In this document: positions 6,539-56,496 of the stretch, piece by piece | Layout: every line of letters starts with the position of its first letter | Numbering within the stretch: the stretch's first letter is position 1 | The notes under the pieces: generated by a model | The model's input: only the letters and a program-made list of their open reading frames with translations | What the model was told of the DNA's origin: nothing | Database searches by the model: none | Translations under genes and position numbers: made by a program | DNA from: Phyllobacterium myrsinacearum | GTDB lineage: Bacteria > Pseudomonadota > Alphaproteobacteria > Rhizobiales > Rhizobiaceae | Direction of reading: 5' to 3' | Assembly (NCBI RefSeq): GCF_014138285.1 | Contig: NZ_JACGXN010000006.1 | Coordinates: 124,001-188,000 of the forward strand | Length of the DNA: 64,000 nucleotides

Positions 6539-7606
6539 TTAGTCGCGCAGGAGCGGAAGCAGTTGATTTCCCTGCCGCTTGATCTCGGACAGGTATGGCG
6601 TGTCCGACAGTACAAAGTGCGTGATGCCTAGCTCCTCATACTTGCGCAATGAACGGGCGACGTCCGCTGCTGAACCAACGAGCCACGTGGTGCCGGCTCC
6701 GCCACCGCCAAACTTGCCCGGCGCGGTATAGAGATTGTCGTCGAGAACGTCACCGCGTGTATGCAGATCCAGCAACCGCTGCTGGCCCACCGCAACGGAT
6801 TGCCGGTGATCGCTCCAGCCTGCACCTTTGACTTTTGCCATCTCGGCGACCTTCGCCTCGGCGTCGGTCCAGGCCTGTTCCGTGGTGTCACGTACCAGCG
6901 TGGTGATCCGCAACCCGAACTCAAGCGGAGGGAGGTCCCGGTCCAGTTGCTTGCCCAGTGCCCTGAGCCGCTCAATCCGCTCCCGGACACCGTCAAGGGG
7001 TTCACCCCAGAAGAGCTGGACATCGGCTTCCGTGGCCGAGACCTGCTCAGCCGCCTCCGACGCACCGCCGAAGTAGAGCTTGGGATGCCGACGGTCACCG
7101 CGAACCTGAATGCGCGGAGCTGCGGTAGACTCCGTAACCCGGAAGTGCTCACCGGCATACGTGATGTTTTCTTCCGTCCATAGTCTGCGTACCAGTCGCA
7201 TAAACTCCTTGGTGCGGGCATAGCGGTGTGCCTGATCGCCCTCACTGTCGCCATATGCAGAGAGATTGTCCTGACCCGATACTATGTTGATACGAACGCG
7301 GCCGCCGGTGAGATTATCCAGCGTGGCTGCAGCCGAAGCGAGGTTTGCCGGCCGCCAATAACCCGGGCGGATCGCAATGAGCGGCTCGAAGGTCGTGGTC
7401 CGCACCGTCACGGCAGCGGCGACGGTGAAGGTGTCTGGCCGCCCCCAGCCCGTACCGATGAGCGCGCCTTTCCAACCGTGCTGTTCCAGTGTTTCCGCGT
7501 GGGCCGTGAGTGTTTCCAGGCTGTTGTGGTTTTCGACAGCGGAATCGCCGCGGTGGCCCGACTTCACGTCATTAGGGATATACCAAAGGAATTCAGAATT
7601 GCTCAT
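6539..7606 (-). CDS. SsuD-like FMNH2-dependent alkanesulfonate monooxygenase
   Basis: A 355-aa LLM-class (bacterial luciferase-like) flavin monooxygenase. SsuD enzymes use FMNH2 and O2 to split alkanesulfonates into an aldehyde and sulfite. Features matching SsuD are the ATLDNLTGGRVRINIVSGQD block near residues 93-112, the LYFGGASEAAEQVSATEAD segment, the F-W-G-E-P turn, and the C-terminal GGGGAGTTWLVGS loop followed by LGITHFVLSDTPYL. It is the last gene of a leftward operon with a PHBH-type monooxygenase, a DszB-like protein, an SfnG-like monooxygenase and a binding protein. No partner flavin reductase is encoded nearby. The exact sulfonate is unknown. Confidence 0.88.
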   Translation of the reverse strand: MSNSEFLWYIPNDVKSGHRGDSAVENHNSLETLTAHAETLEQHGWKGALIGTGWGRPDTFTVAAAVTVRTTTFEPLIAIRPGYWRPANLASAAATLDNLTGGRVRINIVSGQDNLSAYGDSEGDQAHRYARTKEFMRLVRRLWTEENITYAGEHFRVTESTAAPRIQVRGDRRHPKLYFGGASEAAEQVSATEADVQLFWGEPLDGVRERIERLRALGKQLDRDLPPLEFGLRITTLVRDTTEQAWTDAEAKVAEMAKVKGAGWSDHRQSVAVGQQRLLDLHTRGDVLDDNLYTAPGKFGGGGAGTTWLVGSAADVARSLRKYEELGITHFVLSDTPYLSEIKRQGNQLLPLLRD

Positions 7607-7713
7607 GCGATTGGACTACCGTTGTTCAATGTTGAGATGCGGAAATCAGCCGAGTGACCTCCAGATGGGGTATTACTCGCAATAATTAACAGCTGTGTTG
7701 ATCAGTCATTATT

Positions 7714-8955
7714 CTAGACCAGTTCAGTTGGTGTGTGTCCGAAAACATTGCGTTGCATCGCTACAAGCGAACTTCGGACAGCCTCCGACCCATGCTGAAG
7801 CATCGCGGTTTCATAGGTTGAAAGAGCAGCGAGTAGCGTATTTTGACCAAGCTTTGCCTTCACCAGTTCCCTAGCCAGAAGTCCCGCGTCGTAGATGGCG
7901 GTGTTGCCTCCAAGTGCGCGGAAATATGTCATCGAATGGATGGCGTCGCCAAGCAAGGTGACGCGGCTCGTCTGCCACGGTTGCGGCGGTCGAGAGGTTC
8001 GCACGCGCAGAAGCGCGACCGTTGACGGGTCCGAGTAACGGATGAGATCAAGAATGCCCGGATGCCAATGTCCAATCTTCGAGAGCAGCAGTGCGATAAG
8101 TTCGCCGCGTTCGAGGCGAGACAATACATCGTCGGGTGCCAACTCGCCCGCGCCAAAGGCTGTATTCCACCAGACATAGCTTGTCGTATTGTTGAAATGG
8201 AAACCTTCGATCTTCCGGTGTGTTGCGTCGTCCGCACCGATGAGACCGTATTTGCGATAGGCCTCGGGGTTCACCCTGTGGCTTGTCACCATAAGGCCGT
8301 GTCCGGCACCCGGTTTGATATTTGCATTGAAGTCGAGGAGCAGGGGCGAGATATTGTGGCTTTCCGCGGCAGCAAGTGTCATTTTGCCCGCAAGACGCCT
8401 GACACCTGTGTCATACGTCTGCAGCTCGGGCAGCAACTGCTGGCGAACCCGCGATTTCTCCCCATCGGCACCCACCAAAACATTGGCACTGACGCTGGAT
8501 CCGTCCTCGAAGTGCGCGACGATGGAGGAATCAGGCTGTTCCACGTAATGCGAAAATATCTTGCCGTATTGAACAATGTCATTGAGTTCGGTCAACAAGA
8601 TCTGACGCAAGGTGATGCGGCTGACAGATTTCTCCAGATGTGTGTCGTCGGCTTCGGCATCCGGCGTGTTGCCATCGTCCAGATGTTCGAACTTCTCATT
8701 CAACAGGATATTCTGATGCGGGGCGCGACCAAGCGTGTCGATAAACGTATCAAACAGATGGCTTGGCAGATTGCGTTCGAGTGCATCAAGTCCACGTTGG
8801 CGCAGACGCAGCCGGAAACCTTGGACATAGTCGGTCCGGGCGCGATCTTTCTCGAAGACGGCGACTTCGATACCATTCTTTTTCAGGCCCTGCGCCAACG
8901 CTAATCCGCCCGGCCCCCCTCCGATGATCGCGACGTCTACGTGCTGGCTCGTCAT
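7714..8955 (-). CDS. FAD-dependent monooxygenase, PHBH-like
   Basis: A 413-aa single-component flavoprotein hydroxylase. The N-terminal Rossmann motif is AIIGGGPGGLALAQGLKKNGIEVAVFEKD (dinucleotide-binding GxGxxG near residue 11). The mid-protein VGADGEKSRVR segment corresponds to the DG motif, and VTLLGDAIHSMTYFRALGGN is the GD motif that contacts the FAD ribityl chain. In the usual GD motif the residues after GDA are H-x-x-x-P; here tyrosine replaces the proline, a small departure. The family hydroxylates aromatic or polyketide rings using NAD(P)H. It lies inside an operon of sulfur-related monooxygenases, so it may act on an aromatic part of an organosulfur substrate; that is inference. 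Confidence 0.87.
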   Translation of the reverse strand: MTSQHVDVAIIGGGPGGLALAQGLKKNGIEVAVFEKDRARTDYVQGFRLRLRQRGLDALERNLPSHLFDTFIDTLGRAPHQNILLNEKFEHLDDGNTPDAEADDTHLEKSVSRITLRQILLTELNDIVQYGKIFSHYVEQPDSSIVAHFEDGSSVSANVLVGADGEKSRVRQQLLPELQTYDTGVRRLAGKMTLAAAESHNISPLLLDFNANIKPGAGHGLMVTSHRVNPEAYRKYGLIGADDATHRKIEGFHFNNTTSYVWWNTAFGAGELAPDDVLSRLERGELIALLLSKIGHWHPGILDLIRYSDPSTVALLRVRTSRPPQPWQTSRVTLLGDAIHSMTYFRALGGNTAIYDAGLLARELVKAKLGQNTLLAALSTYETAMLQHGSEAVRSSLVAMQRNVFGHTPTELV

Positions 8956-9012
8956 TTTAGAACCATGTTCGGTCGCTTTGCAGGCACCGCTATATGTTTC
9001 ATGATGCGGGTT

Positions 9013-10047
9013 TCACGCGACTGCACGTGTGTCGAGCGCGTCGAACGGGCGGCGATCGACCCAGGCATCAAGGTCGAAATCATCCTCGAGGAAATCCCAA
9101 TCGCGCAGGAAATTCTTGTAGTGGGCGACGGCATTGAGCAAAACAGGATCAAGACCAAGCGTCAGATGGCGGTGAAGGTCAGGGCCATTCGCTGCGGCAA
9201 CTGTTTCTTCTGATGCTCCGACCTCCCGCGCGACAAACCGCCGTGTTTCATCCGGGTGCGCTTCTGCCCAATCGCCTGCACGCCTGACGGTTTCAATCAG
9301 GCGAACGACCAAATCAGGCCGCTCTTCCGCCAACCGGTTATCCACCGTCAACACGCGCGGTGAGCCGCTGTTAATGCGGATTTTTGGATCAGGGTGAAAG
9401 CCAAATTCTGCAACCCGGATTGTTCCAAAGAGATTGGCAACAGTGATTCCTTGCGTCCCTTTGACATAGATCGCGTCGACATCACCACGGATCAGGGCGG
9501 TCAGCTCATGGGAATAGGGCAGGCGGCGTTTCAGGCCAAACAGCGAGGGATCACCTTGAATATCGAGCACGCTCTCCGCGACAGGAATGTCGACTATTTC
9601 CACATCCTTGTGGGTCAATCCTTCGAGCGTCAAAGCCGACACCAGCCCCTTCAAGGCCGTGGCTCGGTGGAAATCAATGATACCTTCAGGGCGGCGGGCA
9701 ATACCGAAACGGCGATCCTTCAGATCAGTGGTCTTGTGAATGCCTCTGCCCGGAAGCGTAATGATGGCCTGAAACTCGTCGGTCCAGGTGATGCCGACGA
9801 GCCGGGTCGCCCGGCCCTCCGACCGTGCACGGATCGGTGGAACATTGCCTCCGTGCCGGAAGGACCATGACAAATGATGGTTGAAATGACTTTCGCGTAT
9901 CGTCGGGTCCTTGGCGTCGAGGATGGAGTTGAGCTTGATCCCCTCCCTGGCAAAAGTCTCCTCAAGCCAACCAAGCTGGGCTGCAAGACCGACGGGTGTT
10001 GGCACAGGACAGCGCGTGTACCAGATCTCAGAAAGCTGAGTGGTCAT
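9013..10047 (-). CDS. DszB-like desulfinase / SsuA-fold substrate-binding homologue
   Basis: A 344-aa protein of the periplasmic-binding-protein fold with no signal peptide, so it should stay in the cytoplasm. Automatic pipelines would probably name it an ABC sulfonate-binding protein. It carries the residues that define the desulfinase DszB: Cys13 in TRCPVP (DszB Cys27), His54 in ESHFNHH (DszB His60) and Arg64 in SFRHGGNVPP (DszB Arg70). The 10-residue His-Arg spacing and the R-x-G-G motif match DszB, and the next block (TRLVGIT) also resembles it. DszB hydrolyses 2-(2'-hydroxyphenyl)benzenesulfinate to a phenol and sulfite. Here it sits between two monooxygenase genes in one operon. Fold and motif assignment are good; the actual substrate is unknown. 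Confidence 0.72.
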   Translation of the reverse strand: MTTQLSEIWYTRCPVPTPVGLAAQLGWLEETFAREGIKLNSILDAKDPTIRESHFNHHLSWSFRHGGNVPPIRARSEGRATRLVGITWTDEFQAIITLPGRGIHKTTDLKDRRFGIARRPEGIIDFHRATALKGLVSALTLEGLTHKDVEIVDIPVAESVLDIQGDPSLFGLKRRLPYSHELTALIRGDVDAIYVKGTQGITVANLFGTIRVAEFGFHPDPKIRINSGSPRVLTVDNRLAEERPDLVVRLIETVRRAGDWAEAHPDETRRFVAREVGASEETVAAANGPDLHRHLTLGLDPVLLNAVAHYKNFLRDWDFLEDDFDLDAWVDRRPFDALDTRAVA

Positions 10048-10057: not shown

Positions 10058-11242
10058 TTAAGTATGCCTGAGCCCGGCCTGTTTCATCAGCGGCAAGATG
10101 TTGTCACCAAAGAATTCAAGATCGTCCTTGAAATCAAAAAAACTGAGTTGCAGCCCGTCTATGCCCGCATCCTTCAACTTGCCGAACTGGTCAACCACCT
10201 GTTCCGGAGTGCCGATTATGTAGATATTTCCGCCAACCTTGGCGTAGGGATCATTGCGGCCCTCGCGGCTTTTCCATGCCTGGGCATCACTGTTAAACGT
10301 CTGGAATCCTTTGGGCGTCCGTGCATCGGCATGGGCGACGATTTCATCGGCAAGGGCCCAGGCTTCCTTTTCGGTGGGGCGGCTGATGACAAGCGGATTG
10401 ATCAACGTACGCACGCGGCGACCAACCTGCAGTGCGGCATCCTTCACCTTCTTGGTGTGGGCAGGAAGGGCTTCCAGTGTGCTTTCAATATCGCTTCCTG
10501 CGGGGCTCGTGATGAATACGATATCGGAGTAGCGGCCCGCGAATGCGATACCGGCATCGGATCCCGTCGCGTTGACCAGAACCGGACGGCTGTAATTGGG
10601 CTTGGGCGTGACAAACCCTCCCTGAAGTTTCCAGCTCGATTGCCCCTCGAACGAGAAGTTTTCGTTGTCCTGCCAGAGACGTTGCAATACCTCAACAAAC
10701 TCAGCGGCAAGTTCGTAACGTCTGTCGTGCTCGATGCGATCCCATCCAAACATCTCATGCTCAACTGCACGGTGACCGGTCACCACATTGATGCCCCAGC
10801 GACCACCGGTGATATGATCGAGCGTTGCACCGAATTTCGCCAGATGCAGCGGGTGCCAAGGACCGTAAAGCACGTGCATCGTTGAAATGAGCAGTATCTT
10901 TTTCGTCAGGGCGGCCAGTGCGGCAATGGATGTAAAACTATCCAGCGCCTGGCCGTTGAAAACGCCGCCGTAACCGCCCTTCGGCAACCATTGGCTCAGT
11001 GCGAAAACAAGATCAAACCCAAGTTCCTCTGCGCGCAGTGTCAGGTTCTTGTTGTATTCGAACGACCAGTCGGTGGAGCGAGGCAGGGTCGAATTAGTCC
11101 ATCCGCCAGCCTGGATGGGAAGGAACAGCCCCAACAGAAGTGGCTGTTCGAAAGCTTTCGAAAGCGGGCTGTCAGGAAAGTCGGCGGGACCTGAAAAATG
11201 CGGCAAGCCGACAATGGAGCCAGGAGCGTGGACAAGGGTCAT
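10058..11242 (-). CDS. LLM flavin monooxygenase, SfnG-like
   Basis: A 394-aa LLM-class FMNH2-dependent oxygenase. It most resembles dimethylsulfone monooxygenase SfnG and related SsuD-clade enzymes: a DWSFEYNKNLTLRAEELGFD segment, GGRWGINVVTGHR, IEHDRRYELAAEF, a VNATGSDAGIAFAGRYSD block, an ADARTPKGFQTF stretch and the C-terminal IGTPEQVVDQFGKLKDAGID with DLEFFGDNILPLM. SfnG converts dimethyl sulfone to methanesulfinate. The ~30-residue N-terminal extension before EQPLLLGLFLP is longer than in SfnG. The stop lies 11 nt before the start of the DszB-like gene, so the two are probably co-expressed. The exact substrate is uncertain. Confidence 0.8.
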   Translation of the reverse strand: MTLVHAPGSIVGLPHFSGPADFPDSPLSKAFEQPLLLGLFLPIQAGGWTNSTLPRSTDWSFEYNKNLTLRAEELGFDLVFALSQWLPKGGYGGVFNGQALDSFTSIAALAALTKKILLISTMHVLYGPWHPLHLAKFGATLDHITGGRWGINVVTGHRAVEHEMFGWDRIEHDRRYELAAEFVEVLQRLWQDNENFSFEGQSSWKLQGGFVTPKPNYSRPVLVNATGSDAGIAFAGRYSDIVFITSPAGSDIESTLEALPAHTKKVKDAALQVGRRVRTLINPLVISRPTEKEAWALADEIVAHADARTPKGFQTFNSDAQAWKSREGRNDPYAKVGGNIYIIGTPEQVVDQFGKLKDAGIDGLQLSFFDFKDDLEFFGDNILPLMKQAGLRHT

Positions 11243-11272: not shown

Positions 11273-12886
11273 TCAGGAAATGATGTGGGCATTGGCAAGA
11301 CTGCCGGCGATGCCTTCGGCTCCAACGGTTGAAGCGGCAACGCGTTTGTTGAACAGAGTGATTTCCGGCTGGCTGACGATGCCGATATCGGGAAGATCCT
11401 CAACGAGGATGCGCTGGAAATCAGCGAACTGTTCAAGGCGCTTCCGGGGATCGATCTCCACCGCTGCCGCTTCCAGCAAAGCATCTACTTTGGGATTGCT
11501 GTAGTGCGAACCATTGGAGAAAGGCACGCCGGGTTTGAAATTCTTGGACCAGTAAAGCCGCTGCACACCCACAGTCGGATCAAAGAGATTGCTCATGCCG
11601 TTGAAGGTGAAATCGAAATCGCGATCCGTATAGATGCGCTTCGTATAGGTCGCAAAATCCTGCGAACGAACCGTGGCTTCAATACCGATCGCGGCCAACG
11701 CCTGTTTGATATATTCGGCCCCGCGCCTGTAGGTTTCGCCGCTCGGGACATAATCGTGGGTTAGGCGCAGCCGGATGCCGTCACTCCCCCGGGGCAGCCC
11801 GGCTTCGTCGAGCAGTTTTTCCGCGGTAGCCGTGTCGATTGGATATGTCTTGAGATCGCCGACGTAAAATTTGCTGAGGCTGGGGCTGATAGGCCCTGGG
11901 ATCGTCTTGCCATAGCCGTAGTTGATCGTATCGCGGATGACATTCCTGTCGATGACATGGGCAAAGGCCCGCCGGACACGTACATCCTGAAAGTGGGGTT
12001 TGTCGAGATTGAACTCTACCCGGCTGATACCGTTGGCATATTGGTAGCCCTGTGTCTCGAACCCAATATTCGGCAAGGCTTCAAAGCGCTCCAGATCGCT
12101 GAAAGGAACAGGGGTGGCAGGAGCCAGATCAACTTCGCCTGTCTCGATGGCTACAGCCCGGGAAGCAGCGTCGGGTATGAAACGCACAATGAGCCGATCA
12201 ACATAGGGTTTGGGATTATCCCAATATTCCGGATTGCGCTCGTAGATGATGTGGCTGCCGCGAACCCATTCTTTGAAGATAAACGGGCCTGTCCCGACCG
12301 GAGCATTGTTGACGGGATTTTCCGCGGCTTTCGTGCCCTCATAGAGATGCTTGGCTACAATAGGTGTCTCGGCTGCGGCGAGGGCGGAAATGAGGTAGGG
12401 GGCGGGTTTTGAAAGGACAAGCGTTACCGATTGGGGATCGGGGGTTCTTATATCGACGAGGTTGAGGAAGGTGCTGCGCCCTCTGGGGTGCACTTCCTTG
12501 ATCGTCGCAATGGAATAGGCAACGTCAGCGGAGGTAAATTCCTTGCCGTCGTGCCACTTCACCCCCTGCCGCAGTTTAAACGAGTACTCCAGCCCATTAT
12601 CGCTGATCGCCCATTCCGTCGCCAATTGCGGGCGCGGCGTCAGGTCATAGTCATAAGTGAGTAATCCCTCATTGGCCTTGGCCGAGAGAAAGACAGAATT
12701 AAACGCTGTGTGGGCGATTGTCGTGATGACAGGCGGTTCAGCGGACAGGAGCAGGCTGAGTGTACCGCCGTGCTTTGGATCTGCAGCATACGCGTGTGTG
12801 CGAATACCACTGAAAGTGGCACCGAGGATCAGAGCCGAGCCACCCAGAACCTGGCGCCGGGTCGGATTATAGAAGCTGTTTGTCAT
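11273..12886 (-). CDS. Peptide-type ABC transporter binding protein (SBP_bac_5), copy 1
   Basis: A 537-aa exported solute-binding protein of the DppA/OppA/NikA family. The N-terminus has a twin-arginine signal (TRRQVLGGSALILGA) with probable cleavage after AYA near residue 34. Family markers include LATEWAISDNGLEYSFKLRQGVKWHDGKEFTSADVAYS and GTGPFIFKEWVRGSHIIYERNPEYW. It is the first gene of the leftward organosulfur operon and is divergent from the DppB-type permease at 13171, which it probably serves. Three paralogues lie at 19700-24536. Substrates of the family range from peptides to metal chelates and opines; here an organosulfur ligand is suggested only by context. Confidence 0.9.
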   Translation of the reverse strand: MTNSFYNPTRRQVLGGSALILGATFSGIRTHAYAADPKHGGTLSLLLSAEPPVITTIAHTAFNSVFLSAKANEGLLTYDYDLTPRPQLATEWAISDNGLEYSFKLRQGVKWHDGKEFTSADVAYSIATIKEVHPRGRSTFLNLVDIRTPDPQSVTLVLSKPAPYLISALAAAETPIVAKHLYEGTKAAENPVNNAPVGTGPFIFKEWVRGSHIIYERNPEYWDNPKPYVDRLIVRFIPDAASRAVAIETGEVDLAPATPVPFSDLERFEALPNIGFETQGYQYANGISRVEFNLDKPHFQDVRVRRAFAHVIDRNVIRDTINYGYGKTIPGPISPSLSKFYVGDLKTYPIDTATAEKLLDEAGLPRGSDGIRLRLTHDYVPSGETYRRGAEYIKQALAAIGIEATVRSQDFATYTKRIYTDRDFDFTFNGMSNLFDPTVGVQRLYWSKNFKPGVPFSNGSHYSNPKVDALLEAAAVEIDPRKRLEQFADFQRILVEDLPDIGIVSQPEITLFNKRVAASTVGAEGIAGSLANAHIIS

Positions 12887-13058: not shown

Positions 13059-13087
13059 TTGCCAATTGATATTTGACAATCTCTATA
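13059..13087 (+). promoter_or_regulatory. Predicted promoter of the dppBCDF-type operon
   Basis: TTGCCA (13059-13064), a 17-nt spacer and TCTATA (13082-13087) fit a sigma-70-type promoter about 85 nt before the permease start. The -10 element lies inside the dyad at 13073-13098. Confidence 0.45.
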
Positions 13088-13098
13088 GAGTTAGTCAA
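13073..13098. promoter_or_regulatory. 26-bp operator-like dyad in divergent promoter region
   Basis: Outer arms TTGAC and GTCAA are symmetric about a perfect 10-bp core, CTCTATAGAG (13081-13090); 11 of 13 base pairs match. It overlaps the predicted -10 of the transporter operon and lies about 190 nt upstream of the leftward binding-protein gene, so one regulator could control both arms of the organosulfur region. The LysR protein at 24911 is one candidate. Confidence 0.5.
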
Positions 13099-24536: not shown

Positions 24537-24910
24537 TTCAGTGCTCCAGGCATTCAGGCTTCTGCTGCAGCCATGATGTGGCGTGGCGCAGTTTCCGGAT
24601 GATCCGATGGGCACTTTCAAAGCGGAAGAATGTTTTTCTTTAAGGAGAAAGAAGAACGACTTTATACAGTGAAGAAATTCTACTCAGCAGTGCGATCACG
24701 TAACGGAGAGGGGAGGATCTTGCGGGGCAGCTAGAATGAAATGCGGCAGCCAATACGAAAAACAAAATCGCGGCTGCATCTTGGGTTTTGCCGTTTTTAG
24801 ATTTGGTTTCTAGATTGTCGTCTCGAAGAGCGAAGAAAATTGCCCGGCGATCCCTGCTTAAGCAATCACTGCTCTCGTCCTTGGGAGCGTATTTGTGTTG
24901 CAATGTACAC
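24537..24910. other. Divergent promoter region, LysR gene and binding-protein array
   Basis: These 374 nt should hold promoters for both directions and, by LysR precedent, the regulator's binding site. I could not pick a single T-N11-A site with confidence, and the TTGAC dyad of 13073 does not recur here. Confidence 0.4.
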
Positions 24911-25921: not shown

Positions 25922-25965
25922 ACCGCACCAGGGGGAAATATCCGTCGATCAAAGATCGCAAGCGC

Positions 25966-27294
25966 CTATTCGGCCGCCGCCGTCGAATAGGGATTGGCAG
26001 GACGAGCCAGGCCCAGGTGCTCGCGCAGTGTGCGGCCTTCATAGTGTGAACGGAAGAGACCGCGTCGCCGGAGGATTGGCACGACGTGGTCAACAAAGAC
26101 GTCAAAACCGCTCGGCAGCACATCTGGCATCAGATTGAATCCATCAGCAGCCCCGGCACGAAACCAGGCTTCGATATCATCTGCTATGGCCTCCGGCGTA
26201 CCGACAATCGTTCGGTGCCCCGTGCTACCATTCAGCGCGCGGATCAGTTGGCGCACGGTCAAGTTGCCGCGCCGGGCAAAGGCAAGCGTTGCCTTGAAAA
26301 AGGTATGCCCGCCATCGGGTGGCAATGGGATATCGACGGGCAGCGGTTCGTCCAGTTTCAGTCGTTCACGATCGATCTGCAGCACACCTGACAGTCGGGT
26401 CAGACTGTATTCCAGCGGGATCAGTTCCCAGAGTTCTTCCTGCCGCCGCTTTGCTTCTTCCTCCGTGCTGCCGATAATGGTGGCAAGGCCCGCAAGCACA
26501 AGCAGTCCGTCGGGCGAGCGTCCAAGTCTGGCCGCGCGGGATTTCAGATCGCGCGCATAATCGAGTGCTTCCTCGAAGGACTGCGAGGCTGAAAATACCG
26601 CTTCCGCATGACGCGCCGCCAGTTCCCGGCCATCGTCTGATCCTCCGGCCTGGATCAGAACCGGGTGACCTTGCGGCGGCCGCGGTATGTTATGTGGTCC
26701 ATGCACGGAGAAATGGGGTCCGTTGTGCGCAATGGGATGCACCTTGGATACGTCGACAAACTGTCCTGTTGAGACATCGCCGATAAATGCGTCATCTTCC
26801 CAACTGTCCCACAACGCCTTGACGATATCGACAAATTCTGCGGCCCGTTGGTAACGTTGGCTATGTTCAACGGGCTTTGTCAGACCAAAGTTGCGGCTCT
26901 GGGGCAGATCGGCGCTGGTAACAATGTTCCAGCCAATGCGCCCATTGCTCGCATGATCGAGCGTCGCAAAACGCCGGGCGATGTTATAGGGCTCGTTATA
27001 GGTGGTGGACGCGGTTGCGATGAGCCCGATACGATCCGTGTGCGCGGCAACTGTGGCGAGTACGATGGTCGGCTCGAGCGATGTCAGTGGACGGAAGTCC
27101 ACTCGATCCGAAATTGCGGCCTGATCGGCGAGAAAAATAGCATCAAAGGTTCCGCGCTCGGCAGTCTTTGCGATGTTTATATAGTGATTGATATCGAAGG
27201 AGGCACGGGGATCACTGCCATCCATCCGCCACGCCGCCGGGGAAAAGCCCGAATGCAGAATGTTTACATTCAGGTGCAGCTCACGCGCGGTCAT
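25966..27294 (-). CDS. DszA-like / NtaA-family LLM monooxygenase, copy 1
   Basis: A 442-aa FMNH2-dependent monooxygenase of the NtaA/SnaA/DszA (nitrilotriacetate monooxygenase component A) family. Recognisable blocks are FDINHYINIAKTAERGTFDAIFLAD, IGLIATASTTYNEPYNIARRFATLDHASNGRIGWNIVTS, LWDSWEDDAFIGD, a PRPPQGHPVLIQAGGSDDGRELAARHAEAVF segment, and the C-terminal GRTLREHLGL. DszA opens dibenzothiophene sulfone to a sulfinate. Its start overlaps the stop of the DszC-like gene 27291 by 4 nt, so the two are translationally coupled. Substrate specificity is not readable from sequence. Confidence 0.88.
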   Translation of the reverse strand: MTARELHLNVNILHSGFSPAAWRMDGSDPRASFDINHYINIAKTAERGTFDAIFLADQAAISDRVDFRPLTSLEPTIVLATVAAHTDRIGLIATASTTYNEPYNIARRFATLDHASNGRIGWNIVTSADLPQSRNFGLTKPVEHSQRYQRAAEFVDIVKALWDSWEDDAFIGDVSTGQFVDVSKVHPIAHNGPHFSVHGPHNIPRPPQGHPVLIQAGGSDDGRELAARHAEAVFSASQSFEEALDYARDLKSRAARLGRSPDGLLVLAGLATIIGSTEEEAKRRQEELWELIPLEYSLTRLSGVLQIDRERLKLDEPLPVDIPLPPDGGHTFFKATLAFARRGNLTVRQLIRALNGSTGHRTIVGTPEAIADDIEAWFRAGAADGFNLMPDVLPSGFDVFVDHVVPILRRRGLFRSHYEGRTLREHLGLARPANPYSTAAAE

Positions 27295-28472
27295 TGGAAA
27301 ATCCCGGGTTCGGGATAGTCACCCGTCAGATACCAGGTCCCCACGTTGCGCGTTTTATACTCTGCAGGATTGTGCAGGGTATGGATGCGCACGTTGCGCC
27401 AGAACCGGTCGAACCCCTGCTTGCGCACTGCAGAGCGGGCACCCATCACTTCAAAGATCTCGGTCGTCACCTCAAGCGCAACCTTTCCAGCCAGGACATT
27501 GGCCGAAGCGATTGCAATTGCAGCTTTGCCACGCTCGTCTGCGGTCAGTTCCGGTCCACGTGCATAGGCCTCGTCAACTACCCTCAGCGCTCTGTCGGCG
27601 AGTGCGGTTGCTGCCTGTGTCTTGATCCACAACTCCCCGTATTGCCGTTTGATCCATGGATCATCGATGTGCCGGCCAACATCCGAATACATCCATGGCC
27701 GCGAATGGTGAATCGTATAATCGCGTGCTGCAAGCAAGGCGCCTTGGGCAGTGCCGATGAAAACATTCAGGAGAACGCTTTGTTGCTGCAACGGCGTGAG
27801 CAAGCGGATAGGGTCGGTCGAGTTTGCCCGTCCCGGTACGATCTCGCTCTCGTGCACTTTCACGTCCTTGTAGAGCACGCGCCCGCTGCCGGTTTGCGTC
27901 TGTCCTATACCGTCCCAGTCGCCGGCAATGGTAATTCCCTCCCGTTCGGCGGGGATATGCGCAAAGTTGCGCTCGTTCGATTTTTCATCTTCCCACGCAA
28001 CGGTCAGATAGTCCGCAACATGGGAACCGGAGGCAAAAGGACGAAAGCCGTTGAGAATGGTCCATTCGCCATCACGTCGGCCAAACAAACTCTTGGAAAA
28101 GCTGTTTGTGGTATTACCCCAGAACCAGTTTCCGGCCGCTGAACGCCGTAAAATATCTGCGGATTGGTCATTGATACCGCCGGTGATCGCATTCTGGATC
28201 GGACTGAAATGATAGCCGTAGATGTGCCCGAGCGATCCGTCGACCTTGGCGAACTCACGTGTAATCTTGAGTGCTGTGGAATAGGGCTCACCGGCACCGC
28301 CAAACTGCTTTGGGATAAGAATGGTGAGAAGTCCGCTTTCTTTCAACAGACGAATCTGCTCCGCCGGTCGGCCTCCGGCCTGGTCGCGTTCGATTGCGTC
28401 GAGGGCAAAGATCTTGCGCAGGTCGACAGCTGCAGCGATGTAGGGATTGGTGGTGTCGGGCTCAAATATCAT
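27291..28472 (-). CDS. DszC/SfnB-like flavin oxygenase (acyl-CoA dehydrogenase fold), copy 1
   Basis: A 393-aa protein with the acyl-CoA dehydrogenase fold but motifs of the DszC/SfnB branch. KVDGSLGHIYGYH places His83 and Tyr87 where DszC has His92 and Tyr96. GFRPFASGSHVADYL and DWDGIGQTQTGSG match the flavin-contact region. The C-terminal GFDRFWRNVRIHTLHNPAEYK (His364, His367) matches the DszC active-site end. The glutamate base of true acyl-CoA dehydrogenases is not evident. DszC uses FMNH2 and O2 to oxidise a thioether to sulfoxide and sulfone. It is followed in overlap by a DszA-like gene. Confidence 0.85.
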   Translation of the reverse strand: MIFEPDTTNPYIAAAVDLRKIFALDAIERDQAGGRPAEQIRLLKESGLLTILIPKQFGGAGEPYSTALKITREFAKVDGSLGHIYGYHFSPIQNAITGGINDQSADILRRSAAGNWFWGNTTNSFSKSLFGRRDGEWTILNGFRPFASGSHVADYLTVAWEDEKSNERNFAHIPAEREGITIAGDWDGIGQTQTGSGRVLYKDVKVHESEIVPGRANSTDPIRLLTPLQQQSVLLNVFIGTAQGALLAARDYTIHHSRPWMYSDVGRHIDDPWIKRQYGELWIKTQAATALADRALRVVDEAYARGPELTADERGKAAIAIASANVLAGKVALEVTTEIFEVMGARSAVRKQGFDRFWRNVRIHTLHNPAEYKTRNVGTWYLTGDYPEPGIFQ

Positions 28473-28484
28473 TGCTGCTCCGGA

Positions 28485-28826
28485 TCAATTGTGTATGCGT
28501 GGAAAGCCATGGCGATCCGTAAGCAGGTCAAGGATACGGCCGGTGCTGCTGACAAATGCAACACCATCGTGATGCGTGGCGTCATCGGGTACGTTGTCGC
28601 CAAGGACCAGCACTGGAAGTCCTTGATTGGTCTCACCCACGACCTCGATCACCTTTTCGCGGGGGCGCGCAAACGGAACGCGCTCGATGTCGATACTGGT
28701 TGCAAACTGCGGAAAGCTGGCAAGCAGCCCTTCGATGGCATTGCAATAGGGGCACACAAAAACTTCGCCGGGCCGGTTGGGATCGGCGAACCCCGGTTCG
28801 ATCAGAAACAGCTTGTCACGGCTCAT
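28485..28826 (-). CDS. DUF3088-like thioredoxin-fold protein with CPxC motif
   Basis: A 113-aa protein. The start at 28826 follows an AGAGAG purine stretch; a 13-codon extension is possible. Near residue 27 it has VFVCPYCNAIEGLLASFP, a CPYC redox motif like that of glutaredoxins, after a short beta strand (KLFLIEPGFADP). The middle has GLPVLVLGD, resembling the cis-proline loop of the thioredoxin fold. I recognise it as DUF3088, which has no established function as far as I know. It lies between the two DszA/DszC-like pairs, so a role in thiol or sulfur transfer, or in reducing a monooxygenase product, is suggested by context only. Confidence 0.65.
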   Translation of the reverse strand: MSRDKLFLIEPGFADPNRPGEVFVCPYCNAIEGLLASFPQFATSIDIERVPFARPREKVIEVVGETNQGLPVLVLGDNVPDDATHHDGVAFVSSTGRILDLLTDRHGFPRIHN

Positions 28827-28848
28827 GTCTTTACTCTCTGCTCTATGT

Positions 28849-30207
28849 TTATTCTGCGGCCGCACTGGCTGCCTGAGTGAAACGGTTGGCGGGGCGTTTC
28901 AGCCCCAGATTTTCGCGCAGGGTCTTGCCTTCATATTCCGTGCGAAAAAGTCCGCGACGGCGCAGCTCCGGCACAATCAGCTCGATGAAATCTGCGAGCC
29001 CGCCAGGCATCACCGGCGCCATGATGTTGAAACCGTCAGCGCCGTAATTCTCAAAACGTTCTTCCAGAACGTCAGCAATATGTTCGGGTGTACCAACCAC
29101 CTGCCAATGGCCGCGCGCTCCGGCGACACGCAGATAGAGCTGCCGGATCGTCAGGTTTTCCCGCCGTGCCAGATCAAGAACCAAACTCTGACGGCTCTTG
29201 CCGGCATTGGTTTCCGGAAGATCTGCTGGTACTGGCCCGTCAAGCGGGTAGGCGCTCAGATCAACCCCACCCGCGAGCGCTGATACCAGATTGAGACCGA
29301 CCTCAGGTTGAATCAGGTCTTGCAACTGTTCAAATTTTTCCTGGGCTTCGGCTTGGGTTCTTCCCACCACCGGAAAAATCCCGGGGAGAATCTTCAAATC
29401 GTCCGGTGTCCGACCGTATTTGCCCAGACGTCCCTTGACATCGGCGTAATAGGCGGTTGCTTCCTCAAGTGTGATCTGTGCGGCAAAAATGGCCTCGGCT
29501 GTGCGCGCTGCAAGTTCCTTGCCTGCCTCTGAAGCTCCGGCTTGCACGACGACAGGATGACCTTGCGGGGAACGTGGAAGATTGAGTGGACCACGTACTT
29601 TGAAATGCTTGCCGCGGTGATCGAGAACATGCAGTTTTTCCTGATTGAAATATTGCCCACTGGCTTTGTCACGCGGAAAGGCATCGTCTTCCCAGCTATC
29701 CCACAAACCCAGCACAACATCGGCAAATTCCTGTGCACGCTCATAGCGGTCTGCATGGAGGATATGGCCGTCATGGCCAAAATTGAAGGCTGCCTCAGGG
29801 TCCGATGAGGTGACGAGATTCCAGCCTGCACGGCCGCCGCTCAAGCGGTCCAGCGACGCAAACTGCCGTGCGAGATTGAATGGATCGGAATAGCTGGTCG
29901 ATGCGGTTGCGATGAGGCCGATGTTTTTCGTCACGGATGAAAGAGCGGACAGGAGTGTAATCGGCTCGAAAGGATAGACGCCGCTATGCGCTTTGCGGCT
30001 GGCCGCTTCAATATCCTTCAGCCGGGCGGCAACGCCGTCTGCGAAAAAGATCGCATCAAACTTCGCATTTTCAGCTAACTTGGCCAGTTCGATATAGTTC
30101 TCGAAATTAACGCCGACGGATGCTTGCGGATGACGCCACGCAGCCACGTGATGGCCAGTGAAAAGTAGAAATGCGCCGAGTTTGATCTGGTCTTTGCGCT
30201 TGGCCAT
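28849..30207 (-). CDS. DszA-like / NtaA-family LLM monooxygenase, copy 2
   Basis: A 452-aa paralogue of the gene at 25966. It shares FENYIELAKLAENAKFDAIFFADG, a GLIATASTSYSDPFNLARQFASLDRLSGGRAGWNLVTS block, LWDSWEDDAF, PRSPQGHPVVVQAGASEAGKELAART and the C-terminal LRENLGLKRPANRFTQ. The GHHVAAWRHPQAS segment near residue 18 matches the N-terminus of DszA (GAWRH) more closely than copy 1 does. It follows the DszC-like gene at 30222 with a 14-nt gap. The pair probably acts in sequence: sulfide to sulfone, then C-S cleavage. Confidence 0.88.
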   Translation of the reverse strand: MAKRKDQIKLGAFLLFTGHHVAAWRHPQASVGVNFENYIELAKLAENAKFDAIFFADGVAARLKDIEAASRKAHSGVYPFEPITLLSALSSVTKNIGLIATASTSYSDPFNLARQFASLDRLSGGRAGWNLVTSSDPEAAFNFGHDGHILHADRYERAQEFADVVLGLWDSWEDDAFPRDKASGQYFNQEKLHVLDHRGKHFKVRGPLNLPRSPQGHPVVVQAGASEAGKELAARTAEAIFAAQITLEEATAYYADVKGRLGKYGRTPDDLKILPGIFPVVGRTQAEAQEKFEQLQDLIQPEVGLNLVSALAGGVDLSAYPLDGPVPADLPETNAGKSRQSLVLDLARRENLTIRQLYLRVAGARGHWQVVGTPEHIADVLEERFENYGADGFNIMAPVMPGGLADFIELIVPELRRRGLFRTEYEGKTLRENLGLKRPANRFTQAASAAAE

Positions 30208-30221
30208 TGGGCGATCCTTTA

Positions 30222-31400
30222 TCAGCGATACATTGCGGGCGTTGGAAACTCGCCGGACAGAAGCCAGGTTCCGATGGTGCGCTTCTTGTATTCGGCGGGA
30301 TTGTGCAGAGAATGCGTGCGTACGTTGCGCCAGAAGCGATCAAAGCCGTTGGCTTTGGTGGCTGACCGTGCGCCCATGACTTCGAAAATTTCACTGGAAA
30401 CCTCGAGCCCGACATCACCTGCGTAGACATTCGCGGTAGCCAGATCGATGGCAGTCAGCCCGCGCTGTTCTAGGGTCAAGGCCTCGCCTTCATTATAGGC
30501 TGCATCAAGGCTGCGGGCGGCAATATCAGCCAGTTCCGTTGCAGCCAGAGTGCGGATGTAAAGTTCTCCGTATTTTCGCTTGATCCACGGGTCGTCGGCA
30601 TGTTTTTCAACGCCTGAATAAACCCAGGGGCGCGATGTGTCGTTGGTATAGTCGCGGCCTTCGCTCAGTGCGCCCTGGGCACTGCCGACGAAGACATTCA
30701 ACAACACGCTTTGCTGAAACAACGAAGTCAGTGAAGCAAATGGTGTCAACGGCACGTCGGGTGAACCGATGAGTTCGGCGTCGTCCACACGGACATTGTT
30801 GAATGTCACCGTGCCGCTGCCAGTCTGGCGCTGGCCGATACCGTCCCAATCATCTTCAATCACGATACCTTCGCGATCAGCGGGAAGGACAGCCGAGAGG
30901 CGTTGGCCTTTTTCGTTCTCCCATGAGATTTGCAGATAGTCGGCAATGTGTGAGCCGGAAGAAAAGGGACGAAAGCCATTGATTACCCAGCCACTGCCAT
31001 CGCGCTGGCCGGAGGAAGATTTGGACATGGCATTGCCGGAATTGCCCCAGACCCAGTTTTCGCGGGCAGAGCGGCGAAGCAGGTTCTCTTTCTGGGCTTC
31101 CGACCCGCGGAAATAAACGCCGTTGAGAGGCAGGTGGTGATAGCCAAAAAGGTGTGCCAGCGAACCGTCTGTTCGGGCAAATTCGCGCACGACACGCAGG
31201 ATGGACAGCCAGGAAGCTCCTTGTCCGCCGTATTCTTTGCTGATCTGAGCGGAAGGCAGACCGCTTTCCTTCAGCAGGCGTATTTGCTCCAGCGGTTGCC
31301 CGCCAGCTTTGTCCCGCTCCACAGCGTCATGATCGAACACTCTTCGCAGTTCAACAGCCTTTGCAACAAACGGGTCTGATAGATCGGGTTCGAATGACAT
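30222..31400 (-). CDS. DszC/SfnB-like flavin oxygenase (acyl-CoA dehydrogenase fold), copy 2
   Basis: A 392-aa paralogue of 27291. RTDGSLAHLFGYHH places His83 and Tyr87 at the DszC His92/Tyr96 positions. GFRPFSSGSHIADYLQISW, DWDGIGQRQTGSGTVTF and GFDRFWRNVRTHSLHNPAEYK (His363, His366) follow, and this last block is almost residue-for-residue like the DszC C-terminus. It is the second gene of the leftward run, 27 nt after the FMO-like gene. Duplicate DszC/DszA pairs suggest two different organosulfur substrates. Confidence 0.86.
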   Translation of the reverse strand: MSFEPDLSDPFVAKAVELRRVFDHDAVERDKAGGQPLEQIRLLKESGLPSAQISKEYGGQGASWLSILRVVREFARTDGSLAHLFGYHHLPLNGVYFRGSEAQKENLLRRSARENWVWGNSGNAMSKSSSGQRDGSGWVINGFRPFSSGSHIADYLQISWENEKGQRLSAVLPADREGIVIEDDWDGIGQRQTGSGTVTFNNVRVDDAELIGSPDVPLTPFASLTSLFQQSVLLNVFVGSAQGALSEGRDYTNDTSRPWVYSGVEKHADDPWIKRKYGELYIRTLAATELADIAARSLDAAYNEGEALTLEQRGLTAIDLATANVYAGDVGLEVSSEIFEVMGARSATKANGFDRFWRNVRTHSLHNPAEYKKRTIGTWLLSGEFPTPAMYR

Positions 31401-31427
31401 GTTGTTCTTTCGGTTTTTTGAAGAGGT

Positions 31428-32864
31428 CTATTCCGCAGCAATGGTCTCGGCCTGCCAGATGGCCGAGGCATAAAGCTGTTCGGAAAATTCCGGATCAACA
31501 GAGCCAGTGATCCGTTTTTCGTGATGATCGAGGTCGGCCAGAAAAAGATCGCGGCTGATACGGGCGACCACGGCAGGAACATCGCGCCGAATACTGGGTA
31601 CGTCGCCGATCGGCAGACCGAAGCTGACAAAACCAGCAGGGTTATAGACGTGAATGTCTTTCAGATAGGGGGCTTGTCCCGGCACTTTTTCAAGAAACTC
31701 ATGCGCGAGACCCAGATAGGGATGGGCTTCAAGCGAGGAATCCCGCTCGTCGGCAGCCGGGCTATATTGGTCACGCCACAACCTGATCTTGTCGGCAAAC
31801 GCAACCAGTTCCGGACGCGCTGCCGGATCAGCAAAATAGCCGGTTCCGGCGATCACGAAGTCGAAATCGAACGTTTGCCCGTGTATTTGCGTGACAACCT
31901 TTCCCTCGCGAACATCGGCGACGTCCCATGGCGCGCCAAGATGCAGATGGAAGTTCGACTGCCTGACAACGCGTTCTATGGCATCGGGTGGCGGGGTTGA
32001 TCCCGCGGCCCGAAAGCGCAACGCCTGCTTCCAGCGGATGGCATCGGGAAGATGCGGATAATTGTCGTAGGCACCGGGATAACCGCGAACGCGATTGATC
32101 GGGACGTTGGCAATCGATGCACGACGGGCAAAGAGATGGGTATTAGCCGCACCGTTCTCCAGAGCGGTTGCCGCAGCGTCAAATGCGGATGCAGCAGATC
32201 CGACAACAGCGATGGATTTGCCCTTCAGTCCGGTAAAATCAATCACCTCCGACGTGTGAGCAAGGTGCGTTTTTGGAAGACTGGACAATGCAGGTGGAAC
32301 ATAGGCGCCGCCGGCACCACCAACGCCGTTTCCAAGGACGATTTTACGTGTCATTTCAATGTGGTGCCTGCCTGCAACGTCAAGATGCAGGCGAAAGTGA
32401 CCGTCCGCCGGTTCGATCTGCAACAGCTTTGTTGCGTAACGAATCTTGATCCCGAGAAAGTTGCGGTACCATTTGAGATAGTCAGCCCAATCGATCCGGG
32501 AAATTCGGTCAAAGGAAGCATAGGCTTCGGCACCACGCCGGGCTTCATACCAGGATTGAAAGGAAAGGCCGGACAGGCCGAGCTCCGGTCCAGCAAGACT
32601 TTTTGGTGTTCTCAACTTGTTCATGCGTGCCCGCGTCAGCCAAACGCCGGCGTGGCTCTCATCGTCAGCGGCATCAATGACATTGACTTTGCCAATGCCA
32701 GCACGCCGCAGCGCAAAGGCAAAGGTCGCACCTGTCTGCCCGCCACCAATGATCGTAACGTTGTGATCGATACCCCTGATATCCGGAACCCAGTTTACGG
32801 GCGCTTCGCCGATGAGGCGCAACGTTTCCTGTGCCGAAAAATCCGGATTGTCGGGCTTGGTCAT
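31428..32864 (-). CDS. FMO-like FAD/NADPH-dependent monooxygenase
   Basis: A 478-aa flavoprotein from the ATG at 32864 (the frame is open to 33002). It has two dinucleotide-binding motifs: NVTIIGGGQTGATFAFALRRAG near residue 35 for FAD, and KSIAVVGSAASAFDAAATALENGA near residue 200 for NADPH, separated by the IVLGNGVGGAGGAYVPP linker. The final third has FDFVIAGTGYFADPAARPEL, an ATGY-like motif of flavin monooxygenases. FMOs commonly N- or S-oxygenate soft nucleophiles such as thioethers. It is the first gene of the leftward DszC/DszA run and has a long, hairpin-rich leader, so it may catalyse the first S-oxidation; this is inference. Confidence 0.82.
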   Translation of the reverse strand: MTKPDNPDFSAQETLRLIGEAPVNWVPDIRGIDHNVTIIGGGQTGATFAFALRRAGIGKVNVIDAADDESHAGVWLTRARMNKLRTPKSLAGPELGLSGLSFQSWYEARRGAEAYASFDRISRIDWADYLKWYRNFLGIKIRYATKLLQIEPADGHFRLHLDVAGRHHIEMTRKIVLGNGVGGAGGAYVPPALSSLPKTHLAHTSEVIDFTGLKGKSIAVVGSAASAFDAAATALENGAANTHLFARRASIANVPINRVRGYPGAYDNYPHLPDAIRWKQALRFRAAGSTPPPDAIERVVRQSNFHLHLGAPWDVADVREGKVVTQIHGQTFDFDFVIAGTGYFADPAARPELVAFADKIRLWRDQYSPAADERDSSLEAHPYLGLAHEFLEKVPGQAPYLKDIHVYNPAGFVSFGLPIGDVPSIRRDVPAVVARISRDLFLADLDHHEKRITGSVDPEFSEQLYASAIWQAETIAAE

Positions 32865-33197
32865 TCGTGGCGCATCTCCGAGAGTTTCATTCCCGGCGAG
32901 GCTAGGCGGCTCAATTTTACCAGTCCAGCAACATATCCTTGGTGTGTTGACTAGAATTTCTTTCCGATCTTGATCGGGTAGGAAAGCCACGGCAAAAGTC
33001 ATGTTGATTTCTCAGATTTTGCAAGCAGCCGTTGCTCGGCAAAATCTTCAGGAACACCGTAGTCCCGGCGATATCACGGTAACCTCACCCAGCCTGGTCG
33101 GGTTCTGAGGGATGAGCCATGCCAGCTGTTCTTCTGAACGAGGAAAAGGCCCCGAATTACGTCAGGGCTTTTCGTTCAACCGGCACCTCGATTTCAC
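32865..33197 (-). promoter_or_regulatory. Long structured leader of the FMO-DszC-DszA operon
   Basis: This gene-free 333 nt contains four potential hairpins in the leftward transcript: CCTCACCC with GGG/TGAGG (33083-33110), ACCGT with ACGGT (33056-33080), a strong GATTTTGC-AGCA with TGCT-GCAAAATC stem (33015-33046), and CCGATC-TT-GATCGG (32964-32977). None is followed by a T-run in the direction of transcription. I do not recognise a known riboswitch, and in particular not the SAM-II, SAM-I or TPP cores. It may be a cis-regulatory RNA for sulfur status or just an operator-rich promoter. Confidence 0.45.
33143..33173 (-). terminator. Terminator-like hairpin after the small lipoprotein gene
   Basis: GAAAAGGCCC (33143-33152) pairs with GGGCTTTTC (33165-33173) with one bulged G. 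It lies 25 nt beyond the lipoprotein stop and has T-rich 3' ends on both strands, so it may be bidirectional. Confidence 0.6.
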
Positions 33198-56492: not shown

Positions 56493-56496
56493 CGCG

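Follow-up and report, generated by a model that had tools for sequence, protein, structure and literature searches.

A candidate DszB-family desulfinase in a putative organosulfur cassette with a peptide-type importer in Phyllobacterium myrsinacearum

Introduction

Bacterial systems for the use of organic sulfur include the ytm and yxe operons of Bacillus subtilis, which serve the salvage of thioethers and are not known to encode a desulfinase, the dszABC genes of the 4S pathway present in Rhodococcus and on plasmid pMyong1 of Mycobacterium, and the sfn/msu/ssu genes of the dimethyl sulfone pathway (SfnG, MsuC, MsuD/SsuD). Here, we analyze a stretch of 64,000 nucleotides from Phyllobacterium myrsinacearum (positions 124001-188000 of contig NZ_JACGXN010000006.1, in the following C6), which is termed the window and to which positions refer unless stated otherwise. 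Between positions 6539 and 33002 it carries 20 genes for a peptide-type importer, binding proteins, several monooxygenases and a protein resembling the sulfinate desulfinase DszB. We propose, with a probability of roughly 70%, that these genes represent a plasmid-borne sulfur-starvation cassette, in which an imported organosulfur compound would be oxidized to a sulfinate and sulfite would be released by the DszB-family desulfinase.

Most of the sulfur in aerobic soils is present in organic form, as stated in the abstract of PMC3839906, and a route from sulfone via sulfinate and sulfonate to sulfite has been described in Pseudomonas and Acinetobacter baylyi (excerpt of PMC13352529). DszB itself is presented as the slowest step of biodesulfurization in part of PMC4839641. 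According to passages of PMC6100217, its C27S variant is inactive, activity of the H60Q variant is about 17-fold lower, His60 forms a dyad with Ser25 and an RXGG motif is conserved, while the mechanism proposed there involves proton transfer by Cys27 in an electrophilic aromatic substitution. With regard to Alphaproteobacteria, DszABC proteins have been claimed from peptides in Chelatococcus (same part of PMC4839641); the DszB peptide given occurs unchanged in Rhodococcus DszB, and the homolog from Chelatococcus asaccharovorans is of the window type. Among the matches listed from the open-licence PMC literature, none dealt with a rhizobial sulfinate desulfinase or with the cassette. The kinds of enzymes are known; for their combination, the importer and the operator, no description was encountered in the literature searched.

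The DszB-like protein

The protein on which our proposal centers is encoded as follows.

9013-10047, minus strand: candidate sulfinate desulfinase of the DszB family (344 amino acids; C13, H54 and R64; no signal peptide seen)

A sequence search of the PDB at E ≤ 0.1 returned DszB (2de2 and 2de3; 1.2e-14 and 3.5e-13) as sole matches, and the catalytic Cys, His and Arg positions that a first-pass annotation of this DNA had assigned to the protein do align with these structures. C27, H60 and R70 of DszB correspond to C13, H54 and R64, the RXGG motif reads RHGG and G73 is kept, while the position of Ser25 is occupied by threonine (T11). Among 107 aligned DszB-like rows, which exclude the window protein and DszB and some of which share a genome, the Cys-His-Arg (C-H-R) set is complete in 105, the other two (one from Devosia, one a Burkholderia paralog) retaining Arg only. 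Rows of the SsuA type or family in the alignment do not have the set.

The structure prediction and phylogeny suggested in the first-pass annotation both led to DszB. For the AlphaFold2 model (44-row alignment; predicted local distance difference test score 89.6), Foldseek ranked DszB first to third, the best match having an E-value of 1.5e-20, a template modeling score (TM) of 0.75 and a root mean square deviation of 5.0, followed by SsuA with 4.3e-15 and a TM of 0.65. In a tree of 43 rows, one branch parts 25 C-H-R rows from 11 SsuA rows with support values of 94 (ultrafast bootstrap) and 75 (Shimodaira-Hasegawa-like approximate likelihood ratio test), and this split occurred in 100% of 200 bootstrap trees. 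The C-H-R side holds the authentic DszB proteins of Rhodococcus and of pMyong1, and also four rows with serine in place of the cysteine (4/29 rows). A position within the ordinary SsuA receptors, which had been named, along with a lack of induction or growth effect under sulfur limitation, as refuting the organosulfur reading, was therefore not found. The score with the SsuA sulfonate receptor model TIGR01728 was 61.5 bits (curated cut-off 163.5), and the N terminus has no strongly hydrophobic stretch, unlike the binding proteins and most SsuA rows, such that the export signal expected of SsuA is missing as judged by hydropathy only. Taken together, score, residues, fold, tree and N terminus led us to reject an ordinary SsuA receptor, and the protein shares with the DszB family the residues equivalent to Cys27, His60 and Arg70, the RXGG motif, the fold and the position in the tree.

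It could also be imagined that the protein is a cytoplasmic ligand sensor or another non-catalytic protein of the periplasmic-binding fold. This fold is common to SsuA, TauA and Thi5, the Pfam family is NMT1/THI5, one SsuA-type receptor is overall as similar to the protein as DszB, and paralogs with a Cys-to-Ser exchange exist. We consider such a role improbable, however, as the active-site set of DszB is conserved, the serine paralogs are a minority and the sole cysteine of a protein otherwise free of cysteine and methionine is the catalytic one.

The serine paralogs (S-H-R, S-Y-R and S-I-R) are located at positions 7338-8366 of locus L142, 8883-9908 of L144, 1846-2889 of L016 and 7281-8276 of L112. 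In genomes G442 and G116, the serine paralog directly adjoins an intact C-H-R copy (in L142 at 8465-9493), as if the two were an active/inactive pair.

Gene content and organization of the region

The DszB-like gene is part of an operon on the minus strand (12886 to 6539) that comprises genes for the binding protein SBP1, an SfnG-like luciferase-like monooxygenase (LLM), the DszB-like protein, a monooxygenase of the p-hydroxybenzoate hydroxylase (PHBH) type and an SsuD-like LLM, separated by 30, 10, 57 and 107 bases. The importer side (13171-19676) is divergent from this operon and consists of dppBCDF-like genes and genes for an aldo-keto reductase and an FAD/NAD(P)-binding protein. The remainder (19700-33002) encodes three further binding proteins, a LysR-type regulator, two NtaA/SfnB pairs and a protein resembling flavin-containing monooxygenases (FMO). 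All genes named in the first-pass annotation, including a full DppBCDF-type importer with four family-5 binding proteins, two DszC-like and two DszA-like proteins and the SsuD-, SfnG-, PHBH- and FMO-type genes, are open at their positions; the aldo-keto reductase, the FAD/NAD(P)-binding protein, the regulator and the dyad treated below had not been mentioned in it. In the following list, fractions refer to 80 related loci that are introduced further below, and TIGR03860 and NF043015 are models for the NtaA/DmoA family and for DszC, respectively.

6539-7606, minus strand: SsuD-like, FMNH2-dependent LLM (355 amino acids; SsuD in the PDB, 6.2e-51)
7714-8955, minus strand: PHBH-type FAD monooxygenase (413 amino acids; Pfam FAD_binding_3; PDB 4hb9, 9.2e-48)
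10058-11242, minus strand: SfnG-like LLM (394 amino acids; 10 bases upstream of the DszB-like gene)
11273-12886, minus strand: family-5 (peptide/nickel type) binding protein SBP1 (537 amino acids; first gene of the minus-strand operon)
13171-14160, plus strand: DppB-like permease (78/80)
14157-15158, plus strand: DppC-like permease (78/80)
15159-16154, plus strand: DppD-like ATPase (77/80)
16135-17067, plus strand: DppF-like ATPase (78/80; start reset from 15982 to the ATG at 16135)
17103-18167, plus strand: aldo-keto reductase (354 amino acids; Pfam Aldo_ket_red, 3.9e-65; start reset to the ATG at 17103)
18249-19676, plus strand: FAD/NAD(P)-binding protein (475 amino acids; Pfam NAD_binding_9)
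19700-21301, minus strand: family-5 binding protein SBP2 (no Cys, 2 Met)
21327-22931, minus strand: family-5 binding protein SBP3 (no Cys, 4 Met)
22938-24620, minus strand: family-5 binding protein SBP4 (532 amino acids if started at the ATG that is residue 29 of the listed reading frame)
24788-25921, plus strand: LysR-type, GcvA-like regulator (PRK11139, 296.1 bits; cut-off 288)
25966-27294, minus strand: NtaA/DmoA-family LLM NtaA1, DszA-like (TIGR03860, 539.5 bits)
27291-28472, minus strand: DszC/SfnB-like monooxygenase SfnB1 of the acyl-CoA dehydrogenase fold (NF043015, 298.8 bits)
28849-30207, minus strand: NtaA/DmoA-family LLM NtaA2, YtnJ/DszA-like (TIGR03860, 586.4 bits)
30222-31400, minus strand: MsuC/DszC-like monooxygenase SfnB2 (NF043015, 318.3 bits)
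31428-33002, minus strand: FMO-like flavoprotein (Pfam Pyr_redox_3 and Lys_Orn_oxgnase)

Both the SsuD-like and the SfnG-like protein remain well under the respective equivalog cut-offs (TIGR03565, 223.1 vs. 518.2 bits; TIGR04021, 211.2 vs. 382.95 bits). Since the SfnG-like LLM is almost as close to RutA (2.2e-39) as to SfnG (8t0u, 1.7e-43), it may act on a ring. NtaA1 and NtaA2 both exceed the TIGR03860 cut-off (279.7 bits), and the best solved relative of NtaA2 is YtnJ/MoxC (1.3e-114), with DszA ranking lower (1e-96). SfnB1 and SfnB2 remain below the DszC equivalog cut-off of 850 bits, the best solved relatives of SfnB2 being MsuC (6u76, 9.9e-86) and DszC (3.4e-81). For the FMO-like protein, a PDB search gave no relative at E ≤ 0.001; a relative with 63% identity occurs in a Paraburkholderia DszB locus (L113), and the best plasmid match (72%) comes from Mesorhizobium, on a plasmid with a DszB cassette at a distance of about 20 kb.

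The joint occurrence of DszA, DszB and DszC homologs, which the pMyong1 proteins match at 42, 28 and 39% identity, respectively, might be taken to indicate a true 4S pathway for dibenzothiophene. This is highly improbable, because a hydrophobic substrate would not be expected to require a peptide-type importer with four receptors, the DszC-like scores are far below the equivalog cut-off and the DszB-like protein is only 29.5% identical to DszB.

Sulfur-sparing composition of the encoded proteins

The 15 non-membrane, non-regulatory proteins have a median content of 0.56% Cys plus Met, as compared to 3.05% for 159 reading frames called mechanically in 14 regions of this genome (p=1.2e-9). For all 20 genes the value is 0.76%, against 3.21% for the 23 other genes of the window (p=1.4e-5), and about 4% of the 159 reference frames reach 0.76% or less. 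The permeases, the ATPases and the LysR-type regulator are depleted to a lesser degree or not at all. Beyond the start methionine, the DszB-like protein contains a single Cys, i.e., the catalytic C13, and no Met, SBP4 contains neither Cys nor Met in 532 amino acids and SBP1 no Cys and one Met in 537 amino acids, while the SsuD-like protein and the aldo-keto reductase have no Cys and two Met each. Relatives show the same tendency (DszB 0.58%, SBP1 0.19%, aldo-keto reductase 0.57% and rhodanese 0.28%), which is weaker for the SfnG-like proteins (1.53%). Such depletion is the characteristic of sulfur-starvation-induced proteins and, judged from composition, is a sulfur-sparing mark here as well; in a section of PMC8557817, Rhodococcus DszB is stated to contain a single Cys and to be free of Met, and for several enzymes of sulfur acquisition in that strain the number is none or one. 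As the depletion extends to the NtaA, SfnB and FMO genes, these distal genes are probably used under sulfur starvation, too.

A second organosulfur cluster is located elsewhere on C6 (240000-259000; locus L147). It encodes another Dpp importer, an NtaA-like protein, two proteins resembling acyl-CoA dehydrogenases (ACAD) or SfnB and an SfnG-like protein (15728-16828 of that locus), and several of its genes are poor in Cys and Met. Given that this SfnG-like gene sits together with sulfur-poor genes on the same plasmid, the SfnG-like LLM of the window probably has another job.

Distribution and conservation of the cassette

A scan of genome contigs yielded 126 relatives of the DszB-like protein, of which the best 80 loci were kept (63-76% identity). 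They stem from Rhizobium, Agrobacterium, Sinorhizobium/Ensifer, Mesorhizobium, Neorhizobium, Devosia, Kaistia, Chelatococcus, Sphingobium, Variovorax, Comamonas and others. When the phylum was sampled evenly, matches at 1e-20 turned up in 7 of 398 genomes, the source genome included. Of 58 further related genomes, 19 of which belong to the genus itself, ten have a match at E ≤ 0.001, each of them partial (76-163 of 344 residues) with 27-30% identity. Matches at E ≤ 1e-5 are present in 96 plasmid records, in 75 of them with 60-80% identity. One such match, on pSymA of Sinorhizobium meliloti 2011 (L148), is 72.4% identical, and in Mesorhizobium sp. 113-3-3 (L092) an LLM gene is situated between those for the binding protein and the DszB-like protein. 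Because so few genomes of the phylum sample and of the near relatives carry a match, the cassette is, on sequence grounds, accessory and often plasmid-borne. C6 itself (309,659 bases in a genome of 5.97 Mb) is most likely a RepABC plasmid or chromid, as it carries repC.

Neighboring genes were counted by best-hit labels only, within up to 10 kb on either side of the DszB-like gene, some loci being cut by contig ends. Besides the importer genes, SBP1 was found in 77 of the 80 loci, the aldo-keto reductase in 75, two ACAD-type proteins termed ACAD_B and ACAD_A in 70 and 64, the SfnG-like protein in 44 and the SsuD-like protein in 38 (25 at ≥50% identity), followed by SBP4 (24), the FAD/NAD(P)-binding protein (17) and the PHBH-type enzyme (16). 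In the relatives, ACAD_B adjoins DszB and ACAD_A the aldo-keto reductase. The synteny check advised in the first-pass annotation revealed a conserved core: the four Dpp genes, SBP1 and the aldo-keto reductase (≥50% identity) together with some ACAD and some LLM are present in 72 of the 80 loci and in none of 13 control regions, which cover 15 of the 20 other SsuA-family places of the source genome and in which none of nine core genes reached 50% identity. The clustering is more than chance, the count being inflated by common descent because the loci were picked by DszB similarity. In Variovorax, Comamonas, Sphingobium, Paraburkholderia (DszB 42%) and genome G305 (42%), the core content is largely kept in changed order. 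Sulfur genes near relatives of the cassette include MsuE (in a Mesorhizobium locus), rhodanese and a sulfate importer.

The idea that the entire 26 kb forms one conserved unit had to be abandoned, as NtaA-type LLMs like those of the distal block are present in 20 of 20 genomes of the genus (source genome included) and lie outside the conserved core; the SfnG-like gene occurs in two of these 20. Of the single system proposed initially for 6539-33002, the importer side (about 6.5-18.2 kb) is retained as the core, while the distal NtaA/SfnB genes are, by their distribution, a separable, common module.

Two alternative assignments can be weighed against these distributions. In a Pseudomonas-type route, an SfnG-type enzyme would convert a sulfone to a sulfinate, the MsuC-like SfnB2 would yield the sulfonate and the SsuD-like LLM would liberate sulfite, with the DszB-like protein as an auxiliary. 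SfnG, MsuC and SsuD are indeed among the best solved relatives, all three types are encoded in the window and the route is described for the organisms cited above. We nevertheless rate it as rather unlikely, since among loci chosen by DszB the importer occurs in 77-78 but the SsuD-like gene in just 38, and an auxiliary binder would not need the C-H-R set that is kept in 105 of 107 rows. The second alternative, in which S-alkylcysteine-type thioethers or peptides would be salvaged in the manner of the ytm/yxe systems, with C-S cleavage by NtaA-type enzymes, would agree with YtnJ as nearest solved relative of NtaA2, with the peptide-type importer and with an M20 aminoacylase encoded about 4 kb from a Paracoccus DszB-like gene. 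It appears unlikely in view of the lack of any N-acetyltransferase or deacylase among the 20 genes and of the location of the NtaA part outside the core; furthermore, a sulfinate desulfinase would be left unexplained.

On plasmid locus L116 of Hydrogenophaga sp. BPS33, a DszB-like fragment (8001-8279; 93 residues, 42%) lies just upstream of one of two flanking IS1071 elements. In the window, a serine recombinase gene (5230-6129) is located directly left of the cassette and hints at a mobile history.

A 26-bp dyad between the divergent operons

An alignment of 58 SBP1/DppB intergenic regions contained one conserved block.

13073-13098, no strand assigned: 26-bp dyad TTGACTAACTCTATAGAGATTGTCAA (given for the minus strand), candidate operator in the divergent SBP1/DppB promoter region

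The dyad is symmetric at 22 of 26 positions (expectation 0.01 per window) and represents the single site in the source genome at up to three mismatches. It was found in 75 of the 80 loci, always adjoining DppB; the gene on its other side is SBP1 in 57, DszB in 16 and SfnG-like or rhodanese in one case each, the latter in Sphingobium, where DppB is not divergent. The five loci without it are four betaproteobacterial ones and L011, which is a second copy from Rhizobium sp. BK650 and lacks a DppB match. In 20 carrier genomes hand-picked from the 80 loci, 21 sites at up to three mismatches were counted (reads on both strands taken once), all at DszB-type loci and one per cassette, the extra site stemming from a genome that has a further DszB locus, where it is flanked by SBP1- and DszB-like genes. 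At up to two mismatches, four of 199 family genomes (source genome included) have a site: the source genome, G164 and G636 at DszB cassettes, which are the genomes of loci L053 and L065 and hence no new cases, and G510, whose two-mismatch site has no DszB match nearby; in this comparison, DszB was looked up only in the genomes bearing a site. The reversed pattern gave no site in the source genome, the 20 carrier genomes or the family genomes. A common promoter element was rejected in view of the single site in the source genome and of the occurrence in only three of 198 other family genomes at this threshold. The dyad is probably the operator of a dedicated regulator and nearly private to the cassette, and overlapping face-to-face promoters within it are possible.

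With respect to the regulator, clustering of 451 unlabelled reading frames gave no family present in more than 14 of the 80 loci. The LysR-type protein scored 201 bits with the model for the choline-sulfate utilization regulator (cut-off 324.8). An Rrf2-like gene, judged by eye from the first residues, occurs in 13 loci (e.g., L068, 17710-18192) and is a candidate sulfur regulator.

Proposed pathway

The initial suggestion of sulfur scavenging by a peptide-type importer and desulfurization in the cytoplasm is supported by the position of the DszB-like protein in the tree, the sulfur-sparing composition and the conserved synteny. Judging by their families, the family-5 proteins would capture a polar organosulfur compound for import by DppBCDF. 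Enzymes of the acyl-CoA dehydrogenase fold using reduced flavin (SfnB1/SfnB2, other subfamilies in relatives) could then oxidize the thioether to sulfoxide or sulfone, and C-S bond cleavage by the SfnG-like LLM would result in a sulfinate and a carbonyl fragment, the latter being a possible substrate for reduction by the aldo-keto reductase. A flavin reductase, not encoded among the 20 genes, would be supplied in trans. In the predicted cytoplasmic desulfinase, C13 would act as proton donor, H54 and T11 as dyad and R64 and G67 at the sulfinate, which would be expelled as sulfite for cysteine synthesis. If electrophilic aromatic substitution of the DszB type holds, the sulfinate would have to be on an sp2 carbon, and for this reason an aryl, heteroaryl or vinyl substrate is favored over dimethyl sulfone. 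With the SsuD- and MsuC-like genes, a second branch in parallel, from sulfinate via sulfonate to sulfite, would be feasible. Expression is probably controlled at the candidate operator between the importer and binding-protein operons.

A number of observations weigh against this pathway. The branch separating DszB and SsuA rows is just under the star threshold of the program, and several SsuA rows are long. The DszB-like protein is 29.5% identical to DszB (302 columns, 57 bits) and 26.5% identical to one SsuA-type receptor of the same genus (302 columns, 66 bits); as overall similarity does not separate the two families, the case for a desulfinase is built on the residues, the missing signal peptide, the fold and the tree. 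The controls for synteny come from one genome, and one of them holds an NtaA2 relative at 65%. Distant DszB-like genes of Burkholderia cenocepacia, G442, G116, Streptomyces, Sphingobium TomTYG65 and Rhizobium ACO-34A are not accompanied by the Dpp/aldo-keto reductase set; they have SsuD-like LLMs as neighbors and, in two cases, also an Ssu-type importer. The DszB-like family is therefore not tied to the Dpp importer, although, by gene neighborhood, the setting of these genes is still one of desulfurization, with another importer. The SfnG-like gene is present in just over half of the loci, and orthologs of ACAD_A and ACAD_B are missing from the source genome (best matches 33 and 29%), such that the chemistry may vary among loci; SfnB1 and SfnB2 may replace the two here. 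The closest solved relative of ACAD_B is PDB 5gj7/5z8t, on the identity of which no paper was found. Finally, DszB is known to act on an aryl sulfinate while SfnG makes an alkyl one, and the joining of these steps is a guess.

Taking the proposed sulfur-starvation cassette one step further, we tentatively suggest, as a reading about as open to doubt as to belief, that rhizobia, agrobacteria, Devosia and some Betaproteobacteria have in common a hitherto undescribed sulfur-acquisition system, in which a polar (hetero)aryl or vinyl organosulfur compound would enter by a peptide-type importer and be processed by a short oxidative route and a DszB-family Cys desulfinase, and which in Alphaproteobacteria would be governed by a dedicated regulator at a 26-bp operator essentially private to the locus. 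If true, this would be a recurrent rhizobial route to organic soil sulfur, a second natural niche for DszB chemistry on soil or plant organosulfur rather than thiophenes, and a pool of DszB-type enzymes for biodesulfurization. Among the plasmid matches listed with at least 70% identity, 11 are labelled 'ABC transporter substrate-binding protein', the rest of the group being unlabelled at the match; these entries would then probably be desulfinases. The near-unique candidate operator offers a handle for finding the sulfur regulator.

Other genes of the window

A likely biotin operon (37262-42303; Pfam matches resembling BioB, BioF, BioD, BioA and FabH) adjoins a GntR regulator gene (42500-43168). 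At 54639-62525, a gamma-glutamyltranspeptidase gene lies within a peptide-importer operon with a GntR regulator, and use of glutathione is possible.

Comparison with known systems

The B. subtilis ytm/yxe systems have an NtaA/DmoA-type LLM in common with the cassette, which is devoid of their acetyltransferase/deacetylase pair. With SsuA/TauA receptors, the DszB-like protein shares the periplasmic-binding fold and distant sequence similarity; it differs by the lack of a visible signal peptide, the Cys/His/Arg set and its separate side of the tree, and there is no Ssu-type permease or ATPase among the 20 genes. The sfn/msu/ssu pathway resembles the cassette in its SfnG-, MsuC- and SsuD-like enzymes, in the sulfinate as predicted intermediate and in the presence of MsuE beside the Mesorhizobium locus, whereas the cassette is predicted to free sulfite by a flavin-free Cys desulfinase instead of oxidation plus desulfonation and has a peptide-type importer. 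The dszABC systems agree in the fold and the Cys/His/Arg site of DszB and in the combination of DszC- and DszA-type monooxygenases in one region. In comparison, the cassette adds DppBCDF, four receptors, an aldo-keto reductase and SfnG/SsuD-type LLMs, its DszB is 28-30% identical, and the 7.8-kb stretch examined around the pMyong1 dsz genes contains no importer.

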